DNA of 44,587 nt from a virus. Positions 1-44,044 of the stretch are shown in pieces. The number at the start of each line of letters is the position of its first letter. Positions within the stretch are counted from its first letter, which is position 1. Both the position numbers and the translations under genes were made by a program. The notes beneath the pieces are model-generated. The model was not told the DNA's origin. It saw nothing but the letters and a program-made list of their open reading frames with translations, and did not search any database. The DNA lies in IMG/VR virus record IMGVR_UViG_3300030329_004103, positions 1 to 44,587 of that record, one strand, 5' to 3'.

Positions 1-522
1 CTCCGAGAGCAAAAGCAAGAATACCACGATCTTAGATCATCATTCGCAGCATACGATTTGTTTATGAGATGTATGCATCCAAACGGCATTGCCTACGATG
101 TTATCAAAAAGAAGATACCAGTAATCAATCAAGAGATTGCGAAGGTTCTCGCCAATATTGTTGAGTTTGAGATTTTCTTTGAAAGTTCTGGTAACAAGTT
201 TGACATTTTTATCAAGCACCCGCAATATGACGAGCGGCCGATTGAAATGGCGTCAGGCGCAGAGAAAACGATGGCTGCGATGGCTATTCGGTTGGCGCTT
301 CTATCTGTGTCTTCGCTACCCAAGGGTGACTTATTTATTCTAGATGAGCCGGGCACCGCACTAGACGAAGAAAATATGGAGGGTTTTATTCGAATCTTGG
401 AACTAATTAAAGTGTATTTTAAGAACGTTTTGCTTATCTCTCACCTTGATTCACTCAAAGACTGCGTTGATATGCAAATTGTTATAGACAAAAAACGCGG
501 ATACGCAAAGGTTAATCAGTAG
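1..522 (+). CDS. 46: gp46/SbcC-like recombination nuclease ATPase subunit (3' part)
   Basis: This is the C-terminal part of an SMC/Rad50-type ATPase; the frame is open to the left window edge, so the start is outside. Visible are an ABC signature (ASGAEKTMAAMA), a Walker B with D-loop (FILDEPGTALDEEN) and the switch histidine (LLISHLDS). This layout matches T4 gp46/SbcC, which pairs with the gp47 nuclease in end resection and recombination-dependent replication. The last codons (KKRGYAKVNQ) and the following ribosome-binding site recur as a non-coding copy at 973-1020, a mark of a local duplication. Membership of the SbcC/Rad50 family is secure; assignment as gp46 rests on the T4-like context. 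Confidence 0.9.
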   Translation, partial: LREQKQEYHDLRSSFAAYDLFMRCMHPNGIAYDVIKKKIPVINQEIAKVLANIVEFEIFFESSGNKFDIFIKHPQYDERPIEMASGAEKTMAAMAIRLALLSVSSLPKGDLFILDEPGTALDEENMEGFIRILELIKVYFKNVLLISHLDSLKDCVDMQIVIDKKRGYAKVNQ

Positions 523-1243: not shown

Positions 1244-1624
1244 ATGAAAATCACAAAATCCCAACTTAAACAGATTATCAAGGAAGAGCTTGAAAGTACA
1301 TTAAGCGAAGTTTATAACCTTCCCGGCTCTGTTTATGATTCTGAAGGAGAGCCTGAGATTGCATCTCCTTATAGAAAGAAACCAAAAAGAAGCTATGGAA
1401 GCGGAATCTCATCTGTCGACAAGCCGCGCCCTCCTCAAAGCGCAGAAGACAAAGCAATTAGTATGTATAAAGGGGTTTTACAGGGGTATTTGACAGACCC
1501 AAATACGGCAAGAAGACTTGGCCGGCCACCAACGTTGGAAGATGCCCTTAGAGCATTTATTTCTAATAGCCCTGAACTTATACAAAGAGCGGCTGATGAA
1601 CTTGAACAAGAAATGGAGCAATAA
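1244..1624 (+). CDS. Small protein with N-terminal capsid-targeting-like module
   Basis: This 126-residue protein starts with the same module, ending L-S-E at residues 20-22. It is followed by a Pro/Tyr/Ser-rich, probably disordered stretch to about residue 65, then a helical C-terminal domain ending in an acidic tail (ELEQEMEQ). The first 16 codons are nearly identical at the DNA level to those at 1018, although the mature parts are unrelated; this indicates exchange of a leader module. Its stop overlaps the start of the FtsZ-like gene by one base (TAATG), suggesting translational coupling. Unknown function; candidate packaged protein. Confidence 0.75.
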   Translation: MKITKSQLKQIIKEELESTLSEVYNLPGSVYDSEGEPEIASPYRKKPKRSYGSGISSVDKPRPPQSAEDKAISMYKGVLQGYLTDPNTARRLGRPPTLEDALRAFISNSPELIQRAADELEQEMEQ

Positions 1625-2763
1625 TGAGCAATAAAGAAAAAGATAATGAATTTGATTTTCTGCCCCCTGCAGAACCGCCACCCTCCTTTAATCAGGAGAA
1701 AGACCACTATCACGAAGAAGTCGCAGCAGCAGATTTCGGAATGGTTGAGGACTTTGGATTGCAGATGGAATACTCTGATGAAGATCTCCTCCCAGAAAAC
1801 ACTGCTCCTTCGTCTATTAACGTAGGCTTTGTTGGTGTCGGCGGTGGAGGTAATAAAATGGCCAATGCTTTTCTAGAACTTGGCTTCAACAAGACTCTGC
1901 TAGTGAATTCCACAGGCAAAGACATCCCAAAGAACGTGGAAGAAGATCACGTTGTTCTTATTCCTGATAGCGACGGCATCGGGAAGAACGTAGATTATGG
2001 TAAAGAGGTTTTCTCTACCAACGGCGCAATCGTAGAGGATGCATTGCGGATCAAACTTGGAAAGGTAGACTGGCTGTTTGTTTTAGCTGGTGGCGGCGGC
2101 GGAACTGGTAGTTCTGTGACTGCACTTCATCCGGTATTCGAACGCTATATGAAATCCGTTCAATCTTCTGGAAAAGTAGTGTATATTGTTTCCTGGCCCA
2201 CAGCACAAGAAAACCTTAACCCCACAATCGCTCGCAATGCGTTGACGCTGGCTAATGACGTAGCCAAGCATCCTCACATCATTCTTGATAACGAGCGCTC
2301 CACTCGCTTACTTCGCGGCAGAATTGGCATGCTTGGTATGTACCCTGTCGCCAACACACAATTTGCTAAGTCATTCGCCCAGGTGCTTAAACTCTCCACG
2401 GAGGATTCACCGATCCAATCTTTTGATAGTAAAGATCTGGAAACATGCTTGGGCAATGACGGGAGAGCTTTTCTCGGCTCGACCATGATAAAAGACCCAA
2501 ATACTGGAAAGCTTGGATCGGTGATCCTACACAACTGTATGAACAGATCAGCCTGCCCGCCACCTAAAGGAAAAGCCGCAGCCGGCTCCCTAATCTTGGT
2601 GGCATCTGAGGAAATGGTGGCAGATCCAAGAGTCAGCAAAAACATTGAGTCGGCAATCGCTTATGTCGGCGGTCGGTGCGAGACACTATTTTCTGGCGTT
2701 TACGTGCGCAAGAATGTGCCTGGATTGATTGCGATACTAAGTATGAATGGATTAGCAACATAA
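1624..2763 (+). CDS. FtsZ/tubulin-superfamily GTPase (phage tubulin-like)
   Basis: This 379-residue protein has an acidic, Pro-rich N-terminal extension (1-63) followed by a full FtsZ-like core. The first glycine loop is GVGGGGNK (71-78). The tubulin signature is AGGGGGTGSS (155-164). Next come NPTIARNALTLAN (199-211) and a DN-containing segment (DNERST, 222-227). The T7-loop region FDSKDLETCLGNDGRAFLGS (267-286) aligns with the FtsZ DFADVRTVM...ALMG segment and keeps two Asp. The second domain follows (320-379). The chain stops right after the last core strand, without the FtsZ linker and C-terminal peptide that bind FtsA/ZipA, so host divisome recruitment by that route is unlikely. It should bind GTP and polymerise. 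It is embedded among MKITK-module genes. Role (virion positioning, a cytoskeletal scaffold, or division interference) is open. Confidence 0.88.
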   Translation: MSNKEKDNEFDFLPPAEPPPSFNQEKDHYHEEVAAADFGMVEDFGLQMEYSDEDLLPENTAPSSINVGFVGVGGGGNKMANAFLELGFNKTLLVNSTGKDIPKNVEEDHVVLIPDSDGIGKNVDYGKEVFSTNGAIVEDALRIKLGKVDWLFVLAGGGGGTGSSVTALHPVFERYMKSVQSSGKVVYIVSWPTAQENLNPTIARNALTLANDVAKHPHIILDNERSTRLLRGRIGMLGMYPVANTQFAKSFAQVLKLSTEDSPIQSFDSKDLETCLGNDGRAFLGSTMIKDPNTGKLGSVILHNCMNRSACPPPKGKAAAGSLILVASEEMVADPRVSKNIESAIAYVGGRCETLFSGVYVRKNVPGLIAILSMNGLAT

Positions 2764-3382: not shown

Positions 3383-3574
3383 ATGAATTATGTACAAGGA
3401 AAATTAGATAGATTAGTAGAGAAGGCAATTTCTCGTAAGTTTATGGTCTGGTTGACGGCAACAGGCTTGTTGGCGTTTTCTGATCTGGCATCTGGCGATT
3501 GGGTAATGATCTCGGCCATCTACATTGGTGGTCAAGCTATTATCGATGGTATTGCTAGAATGAAAGGGGTTTGA
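3383..3574 (+). CDS. Small two-TM membrane protein, putative holin
   Basis: This 63-residue protein has two hydrophobic segments (about 20-37 and 41-58) and short charged ends; the second contains a YIGGQAIIDGIA-type sequence that I associate with phage holin-like proteins. It is directly followed by a spanin-like gene (TGATG overlap), which supports a lysis role at the inner membrane. No endolysin gene is next to it. Alternative: a small membrane protein of unknown function. Confidence 0.6.
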   Translation: MNYVQGKLDRLVEKAISRKFMVWLTATGLLAFSDLASGDWVMISAIYIGGQAIIDGIARMKGV

Positions 3575-3984
3575 TGGTCAAAATTGATTGGGCAAGTGTT
3601 TTAACATTCATAAAAAGAAACTGGAAAGAAATAACAATTATTGTTCTTTTACTTGCAGTTATTGGCAAAATGCGTTATGATTATAAACAACTTGAGAATA
3701 CCTATGAAGCTAGTCAACAATCTCTCCAAAACCAAATCGACGGCTTGCAAGAAATACACGCTGAAGAATTGCAAAGAAAAGAAAATGCATTACAAACTTA
3801 TCGCGATGCATTAGAATTATTGGAGAGACAATATGAGCAGGACAGAGGTAAGATTGAGGTTGTGGTTGAAGAACGAATTGTGGAAATTGAGACAACGATC
3901 GACAACCGAAAACAGTTCACAGAAAACAAAGAAGAACTCGCAGAACAAATAACAGACACATTCGGATTTCAGTATGTTCCTTAA
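3574..3984 (+). CDS. Membrane-anchored coiled-coil protein, putative inner-membrane spanin (Rz-like)
   Basis: The product is about 136 residues. It has one N-terminal transmembrane segment (ITIIVLLLAVIG, about residues 19-31), followed by a long charged, predicted coiled-coil periplasmic region. This is the architecture of i-spanins, which help disrupt the outer membrane at lysis. A TTG at 3571 is possible, but the ATG at 3574 is better placed after AAGGGG. The 3' end overlaps the next gene by 11 bases in another frame, and overlapping genes are typical of spanin pairs. Confidence 0.6.
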   Translation: MVKIDWASVLTFIKRNWKEITIIVLLLAVIGKMRYDYKQLENTYEASQQSLQNQIDGLQEIHAEELQRKENALQTYRDALELLERQYEQDRGKIEVVVEERIVEIETTIDNRKQFTENKEELAEQITDTFGFQYVP

Positions 3985-4387
3985 AGCACTATTATTTTCC
4001 ATGGTGGCTTATGCCGAGCCGCCACAGTTTACTATTGTCGGTCAAGATGAGCCAGCACCCTTTGAGGGTGTTTTGTTTAATAAGCGAGGCATTGCAGAGT
4101 TGCTTGTTATGCCGCTTGATTATCAAATGCAGTGTGATTTAGAAGTTGAATATCAAATAGATGTGCAGGCTACTGAGTTTCAACTTGAGCGTGAAAATTT
4201 TCAAATTCGCTTAGACGCACTCTCTAAAGAATACGATTTGCGTATAGAACAAAAAGACATCGAGATCGCCGCTTTACAAGAAGCAATGCTAAAGCAGTCG
4301 CCTAACAACAAATGGTGGTGGTTTGCCGGCGGAATTGTAGCAGGTGTTAGTGTTACATATGCTGCATATAGAGGTTTCAGTGAGTAA
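3974..4387 (+). CDS. Exported coiled-coil protein with C-terminal TM, lysis-cluster protein
   Basis: This 137-residue protein has a short signal-peptide-like N-terminus (MFLKALLFSMVAYA, probable cleavage after AYA) and a folded region around residues 20-50. A coiled coil covers about 55-105, and there is a C-terminal transmembrane helix after a WWW triplet (about 115-130). The start lies inside the upstream spanin-like gene. It sits where an outer-membrane spanin partner would be, but no lipobox Cys follows the signal, so a classic lipoprotein o-spanin is not supported. The topology suggests an envelope-spanning lysis or envelope protein. Function uncertain. Confidence 0.6.
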   Translation: MFLKALLFSMVAYAEPPQFTIVGQDEPAPFEGVLFNKRGIAELLVMPLDYQMQCDLEVEYQIDVQATEFQLERENFQIRLDALSKEYDLRIEQKDIEIAALQEAMLKQSPNNKWWWFAGGIVAGVSVTYAAYRGFSE

Positions 4388-5597: not shown

Positions 5598-6076
5598 TGA
5601 AAATCACCCTTGAAAGATTGCGAGAGATTATTACTGAGGAAGTTATCAAAGAGGAGCTTGCTCCTGACATAGCTGCGCCAGCCATCGCCGCAATGCTTCA
5701 AGGATCTGAAGCTGAAGTTACTTCGGACATCTTTGGTGCTGTATTTGATCAGATGTACGGTGAGGGCGCTTTAGACGCTGAGGCAGAAAGAATGGCCAAT
5801 GCTGGAGAACCAGAAGAAGAAAGCTTCCCCACCGACTATCAGGCCGGCGGTGCTTATGGCGATCGCCCTAAAATAGGATTTAAAGAAGAGATCGCTCAAA
5901 TTGTTAGAGAAGCTTTTGAAGGCTTGGAACTATCTGACTCAGAACTTGAAAACATGTCTGATAGAGAGCTTATTGACGTAGCTCATCAAGATGGTGTCGA
6001 GGAATTTATAGTCTTAGATCTAGAAGGCGATTTAGCCAATCGCGATGAAGTTTTAGCGGCTCTGAAAGATGTATGA
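5597..6076 (+). CDS. Acidic protein with N-terminal capsid-targeting-like module
   Basis: This 159-residue, strongly acidic protein starts MKITLERLREIITEEVIKEE, a divergent copy of the module; I-K-E at 17-19 is a possible protease site. It continues with an Ala-rich segment, a disordered EPEEESF region, and a helical C-terminal domain with a second module-like helix (FKEEIAQIVREAFEGLEL). Its strong acidity resembles prohead core proteins. The stop overlaps the terminase start by four bases (ATGA). Unknown; candidate core or cargo protein. Confidence 0.65.
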   Translation: MKITLERLREIITEEVIKEELAPDIAAPAIAAMLQGSEAEVTSDIFGAVFDQMYGEGALDAEAERMANAGEPEEESFPTDYQAGGAYGDRPKIGFKEEIAQIVREAFEGLELSDSELENMSDRELIDVAHQDGVEEFIVLDLEGDLANRDEVLAALKDV

Positions 6077-7659
6077 GTTTCCAACTATCCAAACAAGAAA
6101 AAGTCAAAGAGATACTTAAGTGTGGAAAAGATCCCTCCTACTTCCTTAACAACTACGCAAGAATATCGCACCCATTACATGGACTTATTCTTTTTAACAC
6201 TTTCGACTTCCAAGACGACCTTCTCAAAGATTTTAATGATTACCGTTTTAACGTTATTCTAAAAGCTCGTCAGCTAGGTATCTCAACTATTACCGCTGGC
6301 TATATCGTGTGGATGATGCTATTCCATCGCGATAAAGCCATTCTTGTTATGGCAACCAAGTTTGCAACAGCAGGAAACTTGGTTAAGAAAGTTAAGAACA
6401 TTATGCGGAATGTTCCCGATTGGTTGAAGATTGCGCAGATCAGCGTTGACAACCGCACCTCGTTTGAGCTTTCTAATGGCTCTTCCATCAAGGCGGCTTC
6501 TACTTCTGGAGACGCAGGCCGTTCGGAAGCCCTGTCGCTTTTGGTGTTGGATGAGGCTGCGCATATTGAGGGGTTAGAAGAGTTGTGGACTGGATTGTAT
6601 CCGACGCTATCAACGGGTGGGCGCTGTATTGCGCTTTCTACGCCCAATGGTGTGGGTAACTGGTTTCATAAAACTTGCACCGACTCCGAAGCCGGCTCGA
6701 ACAACTTTAACTTAACTACTCTCATGTGGGATGTCCACCCCGATAGAGATCAAGAATGGTATAAGAAAGAAACTAAAAACATGTCTAAACGGCAAATTGC
6801 TCAAGAACTTGAGTGCAACTTCAACACATCTGGCGAAACTGTTATAGACCCTGAATGTATGGAGTGGATGCTGTCTACAGTTCGCGAACCAAAGTATAGG
6901 ACCGGCTTTGATAGGAACTTTTGGATTTTTGAAGAGTTTGATCCTTCGTGTAATTATCTGTTAGTGGCCGATGTCTCGCGCGGCGACGGAGCTGATTTTT
7001 CTACATTTCAAATCATAAAGCTTGAGACACTTGAAATTGTAGGAGAATACCAAGGAAAGCCAACACTAGACATGTACGCTAATATGCTAAACAGCGTAGG
7101 TAGAGAGTATGGCGGGTGTATGCTGGTAGTTGAAAATAATAATATTGGATATTCTGTTTTAACAAAACTCACTGATGATTATCAATATCCCAATGTGTAC
7201 CATTCAATTAAATCAACTCACGAATATATAGAACAACATCAAGCAGAAGTTAGAAACTCAGCAGTTCCAGGCTTCACTACCTCTATGAAGACCCGACCGC
7301 TCATTGTGGCCAAATTAGAGGAGTTTATTAGAAACAAACTAATTACCATATATTCTTCTCGGACAGTTAACGAGATGAAAACTTTTATTTGGAGGAATGG
7401 TAAGCCGCAAGCGATGAAAGGTTACAATGATGATTTGATTATGGCGCTCGCGATAGGGTGCTGGGTTAGAGACACCGCCCTGCAGGTCAACGCGCGAGAT
7501 TTAAACTATCAAAAAGCTTTCATTAACGCAATATATACAACCAAGACTACTATGAATACGCAGATTAAAGGACAAATAGGCTATAAAAAAGACGAAATAT
7601 TTGATAAAATGTCTGAAGCTGAAAAATTATATAGCCAATATAAATGGATCATAAAGTGA
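6073..7659 (+). CDS. 17: Large terminase subunit (gp17-like)
   Basis: A DNA-packaging motor ATPase and nuclease of 528 residues. The ATPase domain has a Walker A variant KARQLGIST (64-72), Walker B LLVLDEAA (156-163) and coupling motif ALSTPNG (187-193). The C-terminal RNase H-like nuclease has catalytic acids in LLVADVSRGDGADFS (Asp300), VVENNNIG (Glu354) and YNDDLIMALAIG (Asp453/454). The length and lack of an N-terminal extension fit marine T4-like gp17. It docks on the portal, encoded next, and cuts concatemers into headfuls. A separate small terminase is not recognisable nearby. Confidence 0.95.
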   Translation: MSFQLSKQEKVKEILKCGKDPSYFLNNYARISHPLHGLILFNTFDFQDDLLKDFNDYRFNVILKARQLGISTITAGYIVWMMLFHRDKAILVMATKFATAGNLVKKVKNIMRNVPDWLKIAQISVDNRTSFELSNGSSIKAASTSGDAGRSEALSLLVLDEAAHIEGLEELWTGLYPTLSTGGRCIALSTPNGVGNWFHKTCTDSEAGSNNFNLTTLMWDVHPDRDQEWYKKETKNMSKRQIAQELECNFNTSGETVIDPECMEWMLSTVREPKYRTGFDRNFWIFEEFDPSCNYLLVADVSRGDGADFSTFQIIKLETLEIVGEYQGKPTLDMYANMLNSVGREYGGCMLVVENNNIGYSVLTKLTDDYQYPNVYHSIKSTHEYIEQHQAEVRNSAVPGFTTSMKTRPLIVAKLEEFIRNKLITIYSSRTVNEMKTFIWRNGKPQAMKGYNDDLIMALAIGCWVRDTALQVNARDLNYQKAFINAIYTTKTTMNTQIKGQIGYKKDEIFDKMSEAEKLYSQYKWIIK

Positions 7660-40671: not shown

Positions 40672-42036
40672 ATGGCATTAGAAGAAATAGTTGAAGGCGG
40701 CGCCGCAAAGTCGAATTCAGAAGGAAGCAGAGCTTTGTTTTACAAAAGGCTGGCACTTAAAGCGCACATTTTAAGACAAAATAAAGCCCTTGGTGTGAAA
40801 AATATTATAGATTTTAATACTGGAGAAAAACTTTTTTACGGACGCATGAATTATGAATCAATGTCGATATCCTTGAGAAGAAACGCTAACTTAAAGTCGA
40901 TAGCTGCATCGAACAATACAGTTCAGCCGGCAATGGTTTTGCCTTTTGTTGCTGACTTGTTTAATGAAATGGTGCTAGTTTTTAAAAAAGCTTTGGCTCA
41001 AAATCAAATTTCTTCAAATACTCCTTATCTGTCTAACCTAAGGGCTTATAGAGGCTTTCAGTCGCCTCGCGAAGCACATGCTAAATACAAGGCTTTATTT
41101 TTAAGCAAAATAGGTAAAAAAATTCGCAGCCTGAATCCTACTTTTTCTACTCTAGATGAATTTGTGCCTGTTTTTATGAATCATTATGGGGCCACTTTGG
41201 GAACCACCCCATTAACGTATTCAAGCTTTATTAAAAGTCGTTTTAATACTATCTTATCTTCAGGTCTTGCAATCGAAGTAGCTGATTTAGATTATTTTAA
41301 TGATGATAAGAAAATAGCAGAGTTTGTGGAATCTGATAACTGGTCGTTTTTTGTACAGGTATGCAATAACCATGGATTTATGATAGATGCACATGCTCCA
41401 TTTCGCATCGTTGCTGATTTAAATTCAAGTATAATGTTGGAGCGCGCAGGATTTTATGGATACGCTGGCGTCAAGGGGCTTTTTCAAAGAGAGTATAAAT
41501 TAGCTATAATTTTATCTATTCGAGATATGATTTCTGATTTGTTAGAGATATATAAGCACGCGACCTCTGGCACGCCTGTTGTTGAAACTGTAATGTGTGG
41601 TGATCAAATAGTTAATCGGCCGATTGTTACTAAATCGTACACACTTAGAGAAGCTTATTCTGCATTCACCATTGAAGGTCTTATCATGACCTATTGTTTT
41701 ATTAAATTAGCTGAAGTGAGGCCAACAATGGAGGACACAAAAAAACAAAAGCTTTTAAGAGATATTAGGGATTTATATGCTGCGTATCGTTCTTTGACAG
41801 TGCCTCTTATTTATTTTGAAGAATTAATATCAAAAACATTTGACAGCATAGGATCATTCAGTTATTATAAGAAAACTGCGCCCGCAAAACTGCAAGCACT
41901 GTTCGATAGTGGCAAAATAGATGCTATTGAAATGGAAACTGCAGTTGAGCAACGCTCTACAGGAAACTTTTTAGGAACATCTTACATGTCTACTGACGGC
42001 GGGGGAAGTTCTGGCACCGGAGGAGGTGGTTATTGA
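40672..42036 (+). CDS. Baseplate-region virion protein, unknown
   Basis: This 454-residue, mainly helical protein ends in a Gly-rich tail (GGGSSGTGGGGY). It has several aromatic-rich segments (YKRLALKAHILRQNKAL, IKSRFNTILSSGLAIEVADLDYF) but no motif I can name. It has a good SD (GAGGAG) and follows the giant baseplate gene. The 3' end overlaps the polymerase gene start, and the codons for its Gly tail supply that gene's ribosome-binding site. Probably structural. Confidence 0.6.
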   Translation: MALEEIVEGGAAKSNSEGSRALFYKRLALKAHILRQNKALGVKNIIDFNTGEKLFYGRMNYESMSISLRRNANLKSIAASNNTVQPAMVLPFVADLFNEMVLVFKKALAQNQISSNTPYLSNLRAYRGFQSPREAHAKYKALFLSKIGKKIRSLNPTFSTLDEFVPVFMNHYGATLGTTPLTYSSFIKSRFNTILSSGLAIEVADLDYFNDDKKIAEFVESDNWSFFVQVCNNHGFMIDAHAPFRIVADLNSSIMLERAGFYGYAGVKGLFQREYKLAIILSIRDMISDLLEIYKHATSGTPVVETVMCGDQIVNRPIVTKSYTLREAYSAFTIEGLIMTYCFIKLAEVRPTMEDTKKQKLLRDIRDLYAAYRSLTVPLIYFEELISKTFDSIGSFSYYKKTAPAKLQALFDSGKIDAIEMETAVEQRSTGNFLGTSYMSTDGGGSSGTGGGGY

Positions 42037-43208
42037 TATTCCAAGCACTTGACGATAAGTCAGAATGTATCGGAATTTACGCAGACGGCAAGCTATCGTT
42101 TGAAGATTTTCCAGAAAATTTAACAAAAACGTGGCGCTATAGTGGCTCTATTACAAATCCATCGGTGGAGTATGCCTGGATACGTGCTGGAGGCCGCAAT
42201 ATTGCCGATTGCTGTCCAGAAGATTTATGCAATGAACTTCAAGCTACGATAAGAAAAATGAAGGCTTATTTGAAGTCTTTCAAAATTGCCAAAGTTAACA
42301 TGGCAGATCATTGTGTGTTTGATTTGATCCCTCACGATTTTCTTGTGCAGTTCTGCGAGATTAAAAACAAGATTACTGAACACGTATTTGAGACTTATGA
42401 GAAACCAGATAACTATGAACACTTAGACGCGGTATACAAGCTGCTGCATAAGATCCGCTACCAGCGCCTTAATCTAAATAGCGAAGATTGCAAGCATTTG
42501 TTTTATTCTTCCATGAATCGTCAAAAGATTCAAGAACTGATGAAAAACTATAGACGCATTGATTATAACATGTTTGGCACAATCACAGGGCGCCTTACAA
42601 CGCATCCAGAATCTTTTCCCATTTTGAACATTAAAAAGGATTTGCGCCGAATAATCAAGCCTCACAACGACTTGATGATGAGTCTTGATTATAACGGCGC
42701 AGAGATTCGCACATTGTTGGATTTATGTGGTCAACAACAGCCAGAATATGATATTCACGAATGGAATATACAAAATGTAATCAATGATCTTGAGATGACG
42801 CGCACTGAAGCAAAACTGTATTTTTTCGCTTGGCTGTATAATCCTGAATCAAATGACATTGAGTCTGAACATTATGATCGCGAAAAGGTGCTTGACAAAC
42901 ATTACAAAGACGGCTATATTCATACTCCGTATGGGCGCAAAATTAAAGTAGAGCAGAGGAAGGCGTTAAACTATTTAATCCAAAGCACGACTGCTGATAG
43001 GGTATTGGAAAAGGCCGTTTTAATAGACAAGATGCTTGAAGGTAAAAAATCATTTATTTCACACATCATACATGATGAGATAGTTATCGACTATAGTGAC
43101 GAAGATCGAGATATGGTAGTTGGTATCCGTGATGTTTTTGAAGATGGCTACTTGTCTAACTTAAGAGCAGGAAAAGATTATTTTAATCTAAATGAGTTAA
43201 AGTTATGA
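42033..43208 (+). CDS. Reduced family A DNA polymerase
   Basis: A 391-residue protein with the polymerase core of the Pol I family. TGRLTTHPESFPILNI (185-200) corresponds to TGRLSS...PNLQNIP. Motif A is MSLDYNGAEIR (Asp219). The O-helix is TRTEAKLYFFAWLYNP (256-271, Arg257 and Lys261). Next comes TPYGRKIKVEQRKALNYLIQSTTAD (298-322). Motif C is IIHDEIVID (His347-Asp348-Glu349). All key catalytic residues appear present. There is no 3'-5' exonuclease domain, and the N-terminal ~170 residues are short. The start is TTG overlapping the upstream stop (TTGA), with GGAGGAGGTGG just before. T4-type phages normally use a family B polymerase, so this enzyme in a structural-gene tail is unusual. Confidence 0.85.
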   Translation: MIFQALDDKSECIGIYADGKLSFEDFPENLTKTWRYSGSITNPSVEYAWIRAGGRNIADCCPEDLCNELQATIRKMKAYLKSFKIAKVNMADHCVFDLIPHDFLVQFCEIKNKITEHVFETYEKPDNYEHLDAVYKLLHKIRYQRLNLNSEDCKHLFYSSMNRQKIQELMKNYRRIDYNMFGTITGRLTTHPESFPILNIKKDLRRIIKPHNDLMMSLDYNGAEIRTLLDLCGQQQPEYDIHEWNIQNVINDLEMTRTEAKLYFFAWLYNPESNDIESEHYDREKVLDKHYKDGYIHTPYGRKIKVEQRKALNYLIQSTTADRVLEKAVLIDKMLEGKKSFISHIIHDEIVIDYSDEDRDMVVGIRDVFEDGYLSNLRAGKDYFNLNELKL

Positions 43209-44044
43209 TTTCTATTGTTGGTTTAGGTACCGCCGCTTCACGCATCGCCGAGATGTTTAAATCTACTAAAAATTACAATGTCTATGTTTTGAATAATGAA
43301 GTAGCGCGCAGCTCTAAGTACAAATATAAACTAAAACAATATGAACAACCTGAGCAGTATGAGAAAAACATTCCAAATCTAAAAAAGTTTTTTGATAGCC
43401 TAGATGACATAGTTCAAGTTTTTATTGTTGGCTCTTCTTATAGTTCGAACTATTCTTTAGGTGTCTTAGAGCAGATTAAAGCCAAAGAAGTGCATGTTTT
43501 TTACATCAAGCCAGATGCAGAATTAATGACAGGCGTACCAAAAGTTCTTGATAAAATTGTATTTAGCGTCTTGCAACAATATTCACGTTCTGGGCTTTTG
43601 TCGTCGTTTACGGTGCTGTCAAACATACACATTGAGCAGACTATTGGCGAGATTCCTATAAAAACTTACTACGACAAGATCAATGAATCTATCTTCTCCA
43701 CTGTTCACTACATCAATTATTTTAATCATGCAGAGCCTGAAATTGGCATGACAGCTAAACCCCTGGATATCAACAGAATCCGTACATACGGAATTTTGAA
43801 CCCAATATCTCTTGAAGAAAAATGGTTTTATGAGCTTGACATGTCTCGGGATGTGTGTTATTATTTATGTATCAATAAGGACAGAATTGAAAATGAAGGA
43901 GGGTTGCATAAAAAAATCGTTGATGCGCTCAAGGAAAAGCCTAAAAACGCATTTCGACGTATTTCTTACGCAATCTATGAAACAGAATACCAAGATTTTG
44001 GGCTTTGCGTTGCCCACACTAACGCAATACAACAATACACTTGA
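43205..44044 (+). CDS. Degenerate FtsZ/tubulin-like protein
   Basis: This 279-residue protein starts with a Rossmann-type glycine loop, MISIVGLGTAASRIAEMF. At the place of the tubulin signature it has VFIVGSSYSSNYSLG (72-86) instead of GGGTGSG. A helix INESIFSTVHYINYF leads to KPLDINRIRTYGI (185-197), which aligns with the FtsZ T7 loop NLDFADVRTVM but lacks the second acidic residue. The rest matches the size of the FtsZ second domain. It therefore looks like an FtsZ-fold protein with altered nucleotide-binding and catalytic loops. Start overlaps the polymerase stop (ATGA). Possible partner or regulator of the GTPase at 1624; this is inference. Confidence 0.6.
   Translation: MISIVGLGTAASRIAEMFKSTKNYNVYVLNNEVARSSKYKYKLKQYEQPEQYEKNIPNLKKFFDSLDDIVQVFIVGSSYSSNYSLGVLEQIKAKEVHVFYIKPDAELMTGVPKVLDKIVFSVLQQYSRSGLLSSFTVLSNIHIEQTIGEIPIKTYYDKINESIFSTVHYINYFNHAEPEIGMTAKPLDINRIRTYGILNPISLEEKWFYELDMSRDVCYYLCINKDRIENEGGLHKKIVDALKEKPKNAFRRISYAIYETEYQDFGLCVAHTNAIQQYT

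Follow-up and report, generated by a model that had tools for sequence, protein, structure and literature searches.

The locus at the left end of this viral DNA raises the question of which kind of tubulin a T4-like phage might encode, and what such a protein would do there. Roles are known for two phage tubulins, PhuZ of nucleus-forming jumbo phages and TubZ of plasmid prophages. The window (the whole stretch of 44,587 nucleotides, IMG/VR record IMGVR_UViG_3300030329_004103) contains, exactly as the preliminary description had it, an open reading frame on the plus strand at positions 1624-2763, which runs from ATG to TAA and encodes 379 aa. Its product (A1) was assigned by sequence and structure searches as a putative tubulin/FtsZ-superfamily GTPase.

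The motifs expected of such a protein are all present in A1: the T1 glycine loop GVGGGGN (residues 71-77, positions 1834-1854), the T4 tubulin signature loop GGGGGTGSS (residues 156-164, positions 2089-2115), which carries the GGGTG[ST] signature, and the T7 loop SFDSKD (residues 266-271, positions 2419-2436; all on the plus strand), with the acids D268 and D271. The two glycine loops and the aspartates D268 and D271, together with N223, Y240 and N244, are unchanged in 76/76 full-length relatives. The glycine loops and the two Asp of the T7-like segment had already been noticed in the window sequence. The set of relatives comprised 76 of 81 A1 proteins (those of 370 aa or longer), taken from the best 80 of 162; the lowest pairwise identity among them was 84%, and no relative kept (best 80 per scan) fell below 83% identity with its query. 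The T7 loop of Escherichia coli FtsZ could be aligned with that of A1, which places D268 and D271 opposite D209 and D212 of FtsZ.

Both ends of the protein are distinctive. The N-terminal extension (residues 1-64, positions 1624-1815, plus strand) is acidic, as had been stated, with a net charge of -14 and a pI of 4.05 in the window; across all 76 relatives it is conserved, 60-70 aa long and negatively charged (net -14 to -20). When the window was compared with the related genome G002, residues 9-64 were 95% identical, versus 94% for residues 65-379, so from residue 9 onwards the extension matches the core in conservation. At the other end, only 3-5 residues follow G376 in 76/76 relatives. A1 therefore has no FtsZ-type C-terminal peptide, a point on which the preliminary description was correct. 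The C-terminal tails of tubulins are acidic, and by analogy with them the extension of A1 may be a docking tail that has been shifted to the opposite end of the protein.

A phmmer search of the PDB returned FtsZ chains with the best E-value (1.3e-9) and the archaeal CetZ 3zid with an E-value of 2.2e-9. The CetZ alignment spans residues 91-375 of A1, so both tubulin domains are touched. The Pfam profile PF00091 matched A1 of the window just below its 33-bit cut-off (31 bits, E 3.7e-7) and matched above the cut-off in all six long A1 relatives, with one match per contig. When A1 was compared with the FtsZ proteins of E. coli and archaea, CetZ-like proteins, gp138 of phage G, plasmid tubulin-like proteins and PhuZ, it could be aligned from T1 to the last strand.

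The AlphaFold model of A1, for which the input was 19 near-identical sequences, was poor (mean pLDDT 47.6; best part residues 70-190). This low-confidence model still matched the tubulin superfamily first: CetZ 3zid was the top match in a Foldseek search of the PDB (9.7e-11) and in VIA (Z 15.7, 162 residues, rmsd 2.5), and the next structural matches were CetZ1/2, TubZ and tubulins. A non-tubulin Rossmann fold, which would have spoken against the original assignment, was therefore not what the prediction pointed to. The VIA matches mostly cover residues 64-302, so that structure alone leaves other folds possible for the C-terminal third; this part is hardly probed by the model, and the CetZ sequence alignment is the better evidence there. 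The CetZ alignment, Foldseek and VIA (the latter two with the model of pLDDT 47.6) indicate a two-domain tubulin fold. Judged by its sequence, A1 belongs to the tubulin/FtsZ superfamily and has retained intact GTP-site motifs; the term FtsZ/tubulin-like was thus well chosen at the level of the superfamily, as supported by the PDB phmmer search, PF00091 and the structure matches.

The comparison with FtsZ, TubZ and PhuZ confirmed the tubulin superfamily and spoke against FtsZ itself. A1 scored 43.6 bits with the NCBIfam equivalog model TIGR00065 (cut-off 295.2), and the tree placed six FtsZ rows in a clade without A1 (100/100). The stem of the A1 clade (support 96/100) measures about 2 changes per site, and the branching of this clade relative to the CetZ-like and the phage-G/plasmid proteins has no firm order. 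Two CetZ-like rows join FtsZ at 88/93, with long branches; there are only two such rows because the archaeal loci L418-L420, L364 and L391, whose proteins were missed by the ORF pattern, were left out. PhuZ forms a long, separate branch. In these alignments, A1 looks like a separate deep lineage outside FtsZ.

An A1 relative is encoded in 162 of 165 pattern-matched viral-contig stretches (best 80 kept), which, together with the purifying selection described below, excludes a chance ORF. The contigs carrying A1 reach 195,690 bases, and A1 is carried by a widespread group of T4-like phages of about 195 kb, which we take to be marine from the published nature of the nearest relatives and from IMG/VR sample numbers. 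Among 50,697 phage records, the sole protein match of A1 was gp138 of Bacillus phage G (24% identity over half the length, E 4e-3; two records of the phage). Three weak matches (best 3.3e-7) came from 80 genomes sampled within a single archaeal phylum, and a scan of 84,980 species genomes gave 192 pattern matches, with no close A1 relative among them.

The A1 gene is single-copy and syntenic, in the order recombination gene, A1, lysis genes, terminase. Upstream lies the C-terminal part of an SbcC/gp46-like recombination ATPase (58-522, plus strand, cut by the window start; phrog_77, 2.5e-21), which was found in 49/49 loci with room (3 kb upstream). Downstream are three small lysis-like genes (3383-4387, plus strand; function assigned by eye), namely a holin-like gene for a 63-aa membrane protein (3383-3574) and a spanin-like pair of overlapping coiled-coil/membrane proteins (3571-3984 and 3974-4387), and then the terminase large subunit (6073-7659, plus strand; phrog_2, 2.4e-50). 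In the 69 loci with room for 4.5 kb downstream, a holin- or Rz-like homologue was present in 68 and the large terminase in 64. Of the T4-type head and lysis neighbourhood originally proposed, the head part was corroborated by PHROGs matches in the neighbourhood (terminase, portal, prohead protease, major head protein and tail sheath); the lysis part is a label given from gene position and reading of the sequence, and Pfam returned no informative match for the three lysis-like proteins. The T4 late-promoter octamer occurs three times in the window, versus 2.74 expected. By terminase and capsid, the nearest named relatives are the immuto phages of Flavobacterium, Microcystis phage Mel-JY01 and the metagenomic LR756508; PF00091 was found in 0/3 of them. 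The cultured relatives nearest by terminase (about 45% identity) infect Flavobacterium and Microcystis.

The ranking of conservation was obtained from one genome pair (the window versus G002). In this pair A1 has the highest identity among the window proteins with a match in G002 (93%), followed by the gp46-like fragment (92%), the terminase (85%), the portal (74%) and the capsid protein (69%). At the same time, 49% of the 174 fourfold-degenerate sites of A1 differ, which excludes recent transfer as the cause of the high identity. This silent divergence is at the low end of the genes measured (it equals that of the capsid gene, 48%; eight other genes gave 61-80%). Since about half of the fourfold sites have changed and the protein is 93% identical, A1 is under strong purifying selection; it has been held by selection and not recently copied. 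Being the most conserved protein of this pair, ahead of terminase and capsid, A1 is probably essential to the phage.

Some further features of this region and of the relatives deserve mention. Seven small ORFs flanking A1 (at 533, 1018, 1244, 2775, 2987, 4750 and 5597, plus strand) have an N-terminal leader of the type MKITKSQLKQIIKEEL, which occurs in four more ORFs of G002 and is repeated at the DNA level as well; another leader, MKLLxENWxxFL, is common to three G002 ORFs. Both end in (I/L/V)xE, which is the shape of T4 prohead-protease sites, and they may therefore be capsid-targeting peptides of internal head proteins, by analogy with T4. A related segment, MKITREQLKEKIRIIVKRVLNE, is located at the C-terminus, not the N-terminus, of a 428-aa protein of Microcystis phage Mel-JY01 (L409:3406-4689). 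G002 also contains a predicted tmRNA gene (L179:5525-5864) with the tag ANNNNYFEQRLAA, which could help to find the host; seven tRNA genes were detected besides the tmRNA in the ten stretches scanned. Positions 60191-76216 of G002 (L178) hold about 20 ORFs, which by eye resemble nucleotide-sugar, epimerase and glycosyltransferase genes.

The window encodes a second candidate tubulin, which the preliminary description had missed. A 280-aa ORF of G002, with a GxG start reminiscent of A1, led to its orthologue in the window at positions 43205-44044 (plus strand, 279 aa; A2), which AlphaFold, Foldseek and VIA identify as a predicted tubulin-fold protein without the tubulin signature. By sequence this protein is practically invisible: no recognisable relative was found in PHROGs or NCBIfam, tblastn against the 50,697 phage records was negative at E 1, no tubulin appeared among the PDB matches of its profile up to E 10, and PF00091 matched 1 of 74 members at an E-value of only 0.1. 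Comparison of the A1 and A2 profiles gave no significant match (30 columns, 9.8% probability). The A2 set consisted of 144 proteins after length and ambiguity filters, in 75 clusters; 74 members, down to 45% identity, were aligned, L202 being left out for an ambiguous residue.

The AlphaFold model of A2 was confident (pLDDT 88.4, pTM 0.88). All 50 matches listed by Foldseek against the PDB were FtsZ, CetZ or TubZ (best 4.3e-12; TM about 0.6-0.7 on the query), and VIA placed CetZ 3zid first (Z 21.6, 260 of 279 residues aligned, rmsd 3.5), before TubZ, FtsZ and tubulins. The model contains a 24-residue helix (152-175), which in our reading corresponds to H7, followed by a beta domain; A2 is thus predicted to have the full two-domain tubulin fold. 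Its weak Pfam matches are to several Rossmann families. An ordinary Rossmann enzyme was nevertheless rejected, as the Foldseek and VIA lists are of the tubulin type and viral epimerases rank far lower. The A2 profile also gave a weak match in Bacillus phage G (193686-193925, L274; E 0.0087, residues 13-91), within a 441-aa open frame distinct from the FtsZ-like gp138, which could be either chance or another cryptic tubulin.

The active site of A2 appears to be altered. Instead of GGGTG[ST], A2 has the loop GSSxSSNY (residues 76-83, positions 43430-43453, plus strand), which is equated with T4 because it follows the fourth strand of the model; among the 74 aligned members, G76 is kept in 74, S77 in 71, S80 in 67, N82 in 73 and Y83 in 68. 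Also kept are G8 (74/74), N140 (71/74), Y155 (74/74) and N160 (74/74), which by our reading of the model stand where tubulins hold the nucleotide. The model has no helix between residues 176 and 191, so that H8 is missing, and acids are found there in part of the family only (E177 in 49/74, E179 in 46/74), which does not amount to an H8/T7 catalytic acid. A2 may therefore be a nucleotide-binding, non-hydrolysing tubulin with one altered filament face.

The genomic place of A2 is fixed. Immediately ahead of it is a gene for the C-terminal portion of a DNA polymerase of family A (42033-43208, plus strand; PF00476 1.7e-11, phrog_17 3.2e-17), whose stop overlaps the A2 start as ATGA. This polymerase part lies upstream of A2 in 141/141 loci with room, with the ATGA overlap in 120 of them, and an SSB gene lies downstream in 131/131 loci with room; the right edge of the window falls before the SSB-type gene can be read whole. 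The polymerase itself seems to be split, its C-terminal part forming a gene of its own (391-452 aa) in the window and, as judged from matches or by eye, also in immuto, Mel-JY01 and LR756508 (L402, L403, L410:2920-4278). In the A2 slot of these named relatives there are two small ORFs (immuto) or other ORFs (Mel-JY01 and LR756508), and A2 was found in 0/3 of them by its profile, with the slot ORFs judged by eye.

A1 and A2 are both encoded in 9 of 12 long viral contigs. The other three (G004, G016 and G017) end before the expected place of A2, about 40 kb beyond A1 by arithmetic on contig positions; in the window the distance is about 41 kb. Among the shorter A2 contigs, four (22-47 kb) lack A1 and one carries a partial A1 at its end, as expected of fragments. 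Both are thus core genes of the clade. As A1 or A2 served to retrieve the sets, which belong to a single clade, this co-occurrence does not prove joint function.

The motifs, conservation and synteny of A1, its co-occurrence with A2 and the genomic place of A2 may be accommodated in a joint model, to which we would give nearly an even chance: GTP-driven filaments of A1, with A2 as a replisome-linked cap or adaptor, would organise the phage DNA. GTP hydrolysis, filament formation, contact between A1 and A2 and the role on DNA are all postulated here. A1, as a tubulin-superfamily GTPase, would polymerise head to tail. In tubulin and FtsZ the T7 acid acts only between subunits; likewise, GTP would be held by T1 and T4 of one A1 molecule, and D268/D271 of the T7 loop of the next subunit would close the site and lead to hydrolysis. 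The conserved acidic extension would serve as a docking tail. A2 would be a pared-down tubulin-fold protein that is produced alongside the DNA polymerase. An altered phosphate loop and the lack of H8/T7 are suited to binding on one side, so A2 could cap or nucleate the A1 filament, or anchor it to the replication complex. Jointly, the two proteins might place or spread phage DNA during replication, or deliver it to the procapsids.

In favour of the joint model are the membership of A1 in the tubulin superfamily by sequence and structure search, with GTP-site and T7 residues invariant in 76/76 relatives; its rank as the most conserved protein of the window versus G002, under purifying selection; the location of A1 next to the recombination ATPase (49/49) and of A2 between DNA polymerase and SSB; the full tubulin fold of A2 in a confident model; and the presence of both in 9/12 long contigs. 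Against it stand the poor model of A1 (pLDDT 47.6), the lack of a significant match between the A1 and A2 profiles, and the location of the two genes about 41 kb apart in separate operons, co-occurrence in one clade being no proof of interaction. The position of A1 beside lysis and head genes would equally fit a late role outside replication, and the much slower change of A1 than of A2 (93% versus 61% identity between the window and G002) argues against tight co-evolution. A two-tubulin system, in which A1 forms filaments and the signature-less A2, translated with the DNA polymerase, caps them or couples them to the fork, is put forward tentatively, as a possible but doubtful arrangement.

The main rival explanations are that A1 and A2 act apart and that A1 interferes with host division. 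According to the former, which seems unlikely, A1 would form a cytoskeletal filament for positioning of DNA or capsids, and A2 would belong to the split DNA polymerase complex, as a subunit that is structural or senses nucleotides and has no more than its fold in common with tubulins. The fixed place of A2 between polymerase and SSB, with the ATGA overlap in 120/141 loci, would agree well with such a subunit, and the distance of about 41 kb and the different evolutionary rates are also in line with separate roles. However, neither A1 nor A2 was found in the nearest named relatives (0/3 each), and both are core genes here; a joint arrival is therefore possible.

Alternatively, A1 might target the host by imitating FtsZ, either entering the Z-ring as a copolymer or poisoning it and so blocking division during infection, A2 being a separate matter; this we find rather unlikely. 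Phage proteins acting on FtsZ are known, and the high conservation of A1, tail included, would fit a slowly changing host partner. FtsZ chains were indeed the best PDB sequence matches of A1, but the identity is only about 20%, and A1 represents a deep lineage of its own, without the FtsZ C-terminal peptide. Moreover, an inhibitor needs no self-contained GTPase motifs, and the known inhibitors among the papers listed are small and non-homologous.

A TubZ-type partition motor, for a phage maintained like a plasmid or as a pseudolysogen, is very improbable. Its attraction lies in gp138, the sole match of A1 in a named phage, which itself matches the plasmid protein RepX/TubZ best in the PDB, and in shared motif shapes (GxGKN, DNE and SFD/NFD). 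Yet A1 is located in the lytic late region, no TubR-like or partition neighbour was recognised among the neighbours scanned in the window, and no iteron array was found near A1 within the window (which covers the part upstream of A1 as far as base 1). It is hardly credible that A1 is a non-polymerising GTP-binding protein, e.g. an assembly or packaging switch, as its place next to late and head genes might suggest, given that the invariant T7 acids are useful only in trans between subunits and that the conservation of the whole chain fits repeated self-contact.

The joint model of A1 filaments linked by A2 to replication thus remains the reading that we prefer, and its implications are considerable. 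What looks like a separate tubulin lineage supplies the most conserved protein (in one genome pair) of a common uncultured T4-like phage, presumably of the ocean, and these viruses may build an internal skeleton of their own during infection. The predicted fold of A2, which is invisible at the sequence level, shows how cryptic tubulins can hide in viral genomes. In the open-licence PMC literature we recognised no paper on the A1 family or on two tubulin-fold proteins in one phage, and we know of no earlier phage with two such proteins in its genome. If true, the two-tubulin system would mirror, in viruses, the division of labour between alpha-, beta- and gamma-tubulin, in an abundant, presumably marine T4-like group without a recognised phage nucleus.

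Among the known systems, bacterial and archaeal FtsZ resembles A1 in its tubulin fold, T1/T4 loops and T7 aspartates; it differs in having a C-terminal peptide, where A1 has the acidic N-terminal extension instead, and A1 falls far below the TIGR00065 threshold and outside the fully supported FtsZ clade. CetZ 3zid, from Methanothrix (Methanosaeta) thermophila, headed the structural matches of A1 as well as those of A2. It shares with A1 the GGTGSS loop and an alignment that reaches the C-terminal domain, but the identity is only about 20% and the tree does not join A1 to the CetZ-like rows. TubZ, gp138 of phage G and the Bacillaceae plasmid proteins have T3, S6 and T7 segments similar to those of A1, whereas gp138 and the plasmid tubulin-like proteins have C-terminal extensions that A1 lacks, and gp138 is 24% identical over half the length. 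The C-terminal tail of TubZ is reportedly needed for its filament contacts, according to one study. FtsZ-like proteins of uncultured phages are already present in databases: the best viral structural match of A2 was A0A6J5RW92, annotated as an FtsZ cell division GTPase of an uncultured Caudovirales phage (E 4.3e-12, TMq 0.74), which differs from A2 in its length of 452 aa and has 14% sequence identity.

Tubulin-like proteins of phages, including two distinct types from jumbo phages, are described in PMC7824862, and a review (PMC13282480) states that PhuZ centres the phage nucleus and carries capsids. Single-sequence phmmer searches with PhuZ and ChmA of phiKZ against the G002 ORFs gave no match at E 10, a search that a distant homologue could escape. 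The diversity of PhuZ and chimallin is reportedly the subject of Sun et al. 2025 (PMC12625630), where an earlier notice may exist. PhuZ depends on its C-terminal tail for filament contacts, unlike A1, which has no such residues beyond the last strand. Like A1, the PhuZ of phiKZ-type jumbo phages is a tubulin encoded by a lytic phage; among the known systems it is likely to be the nearest functional analogue of A1.
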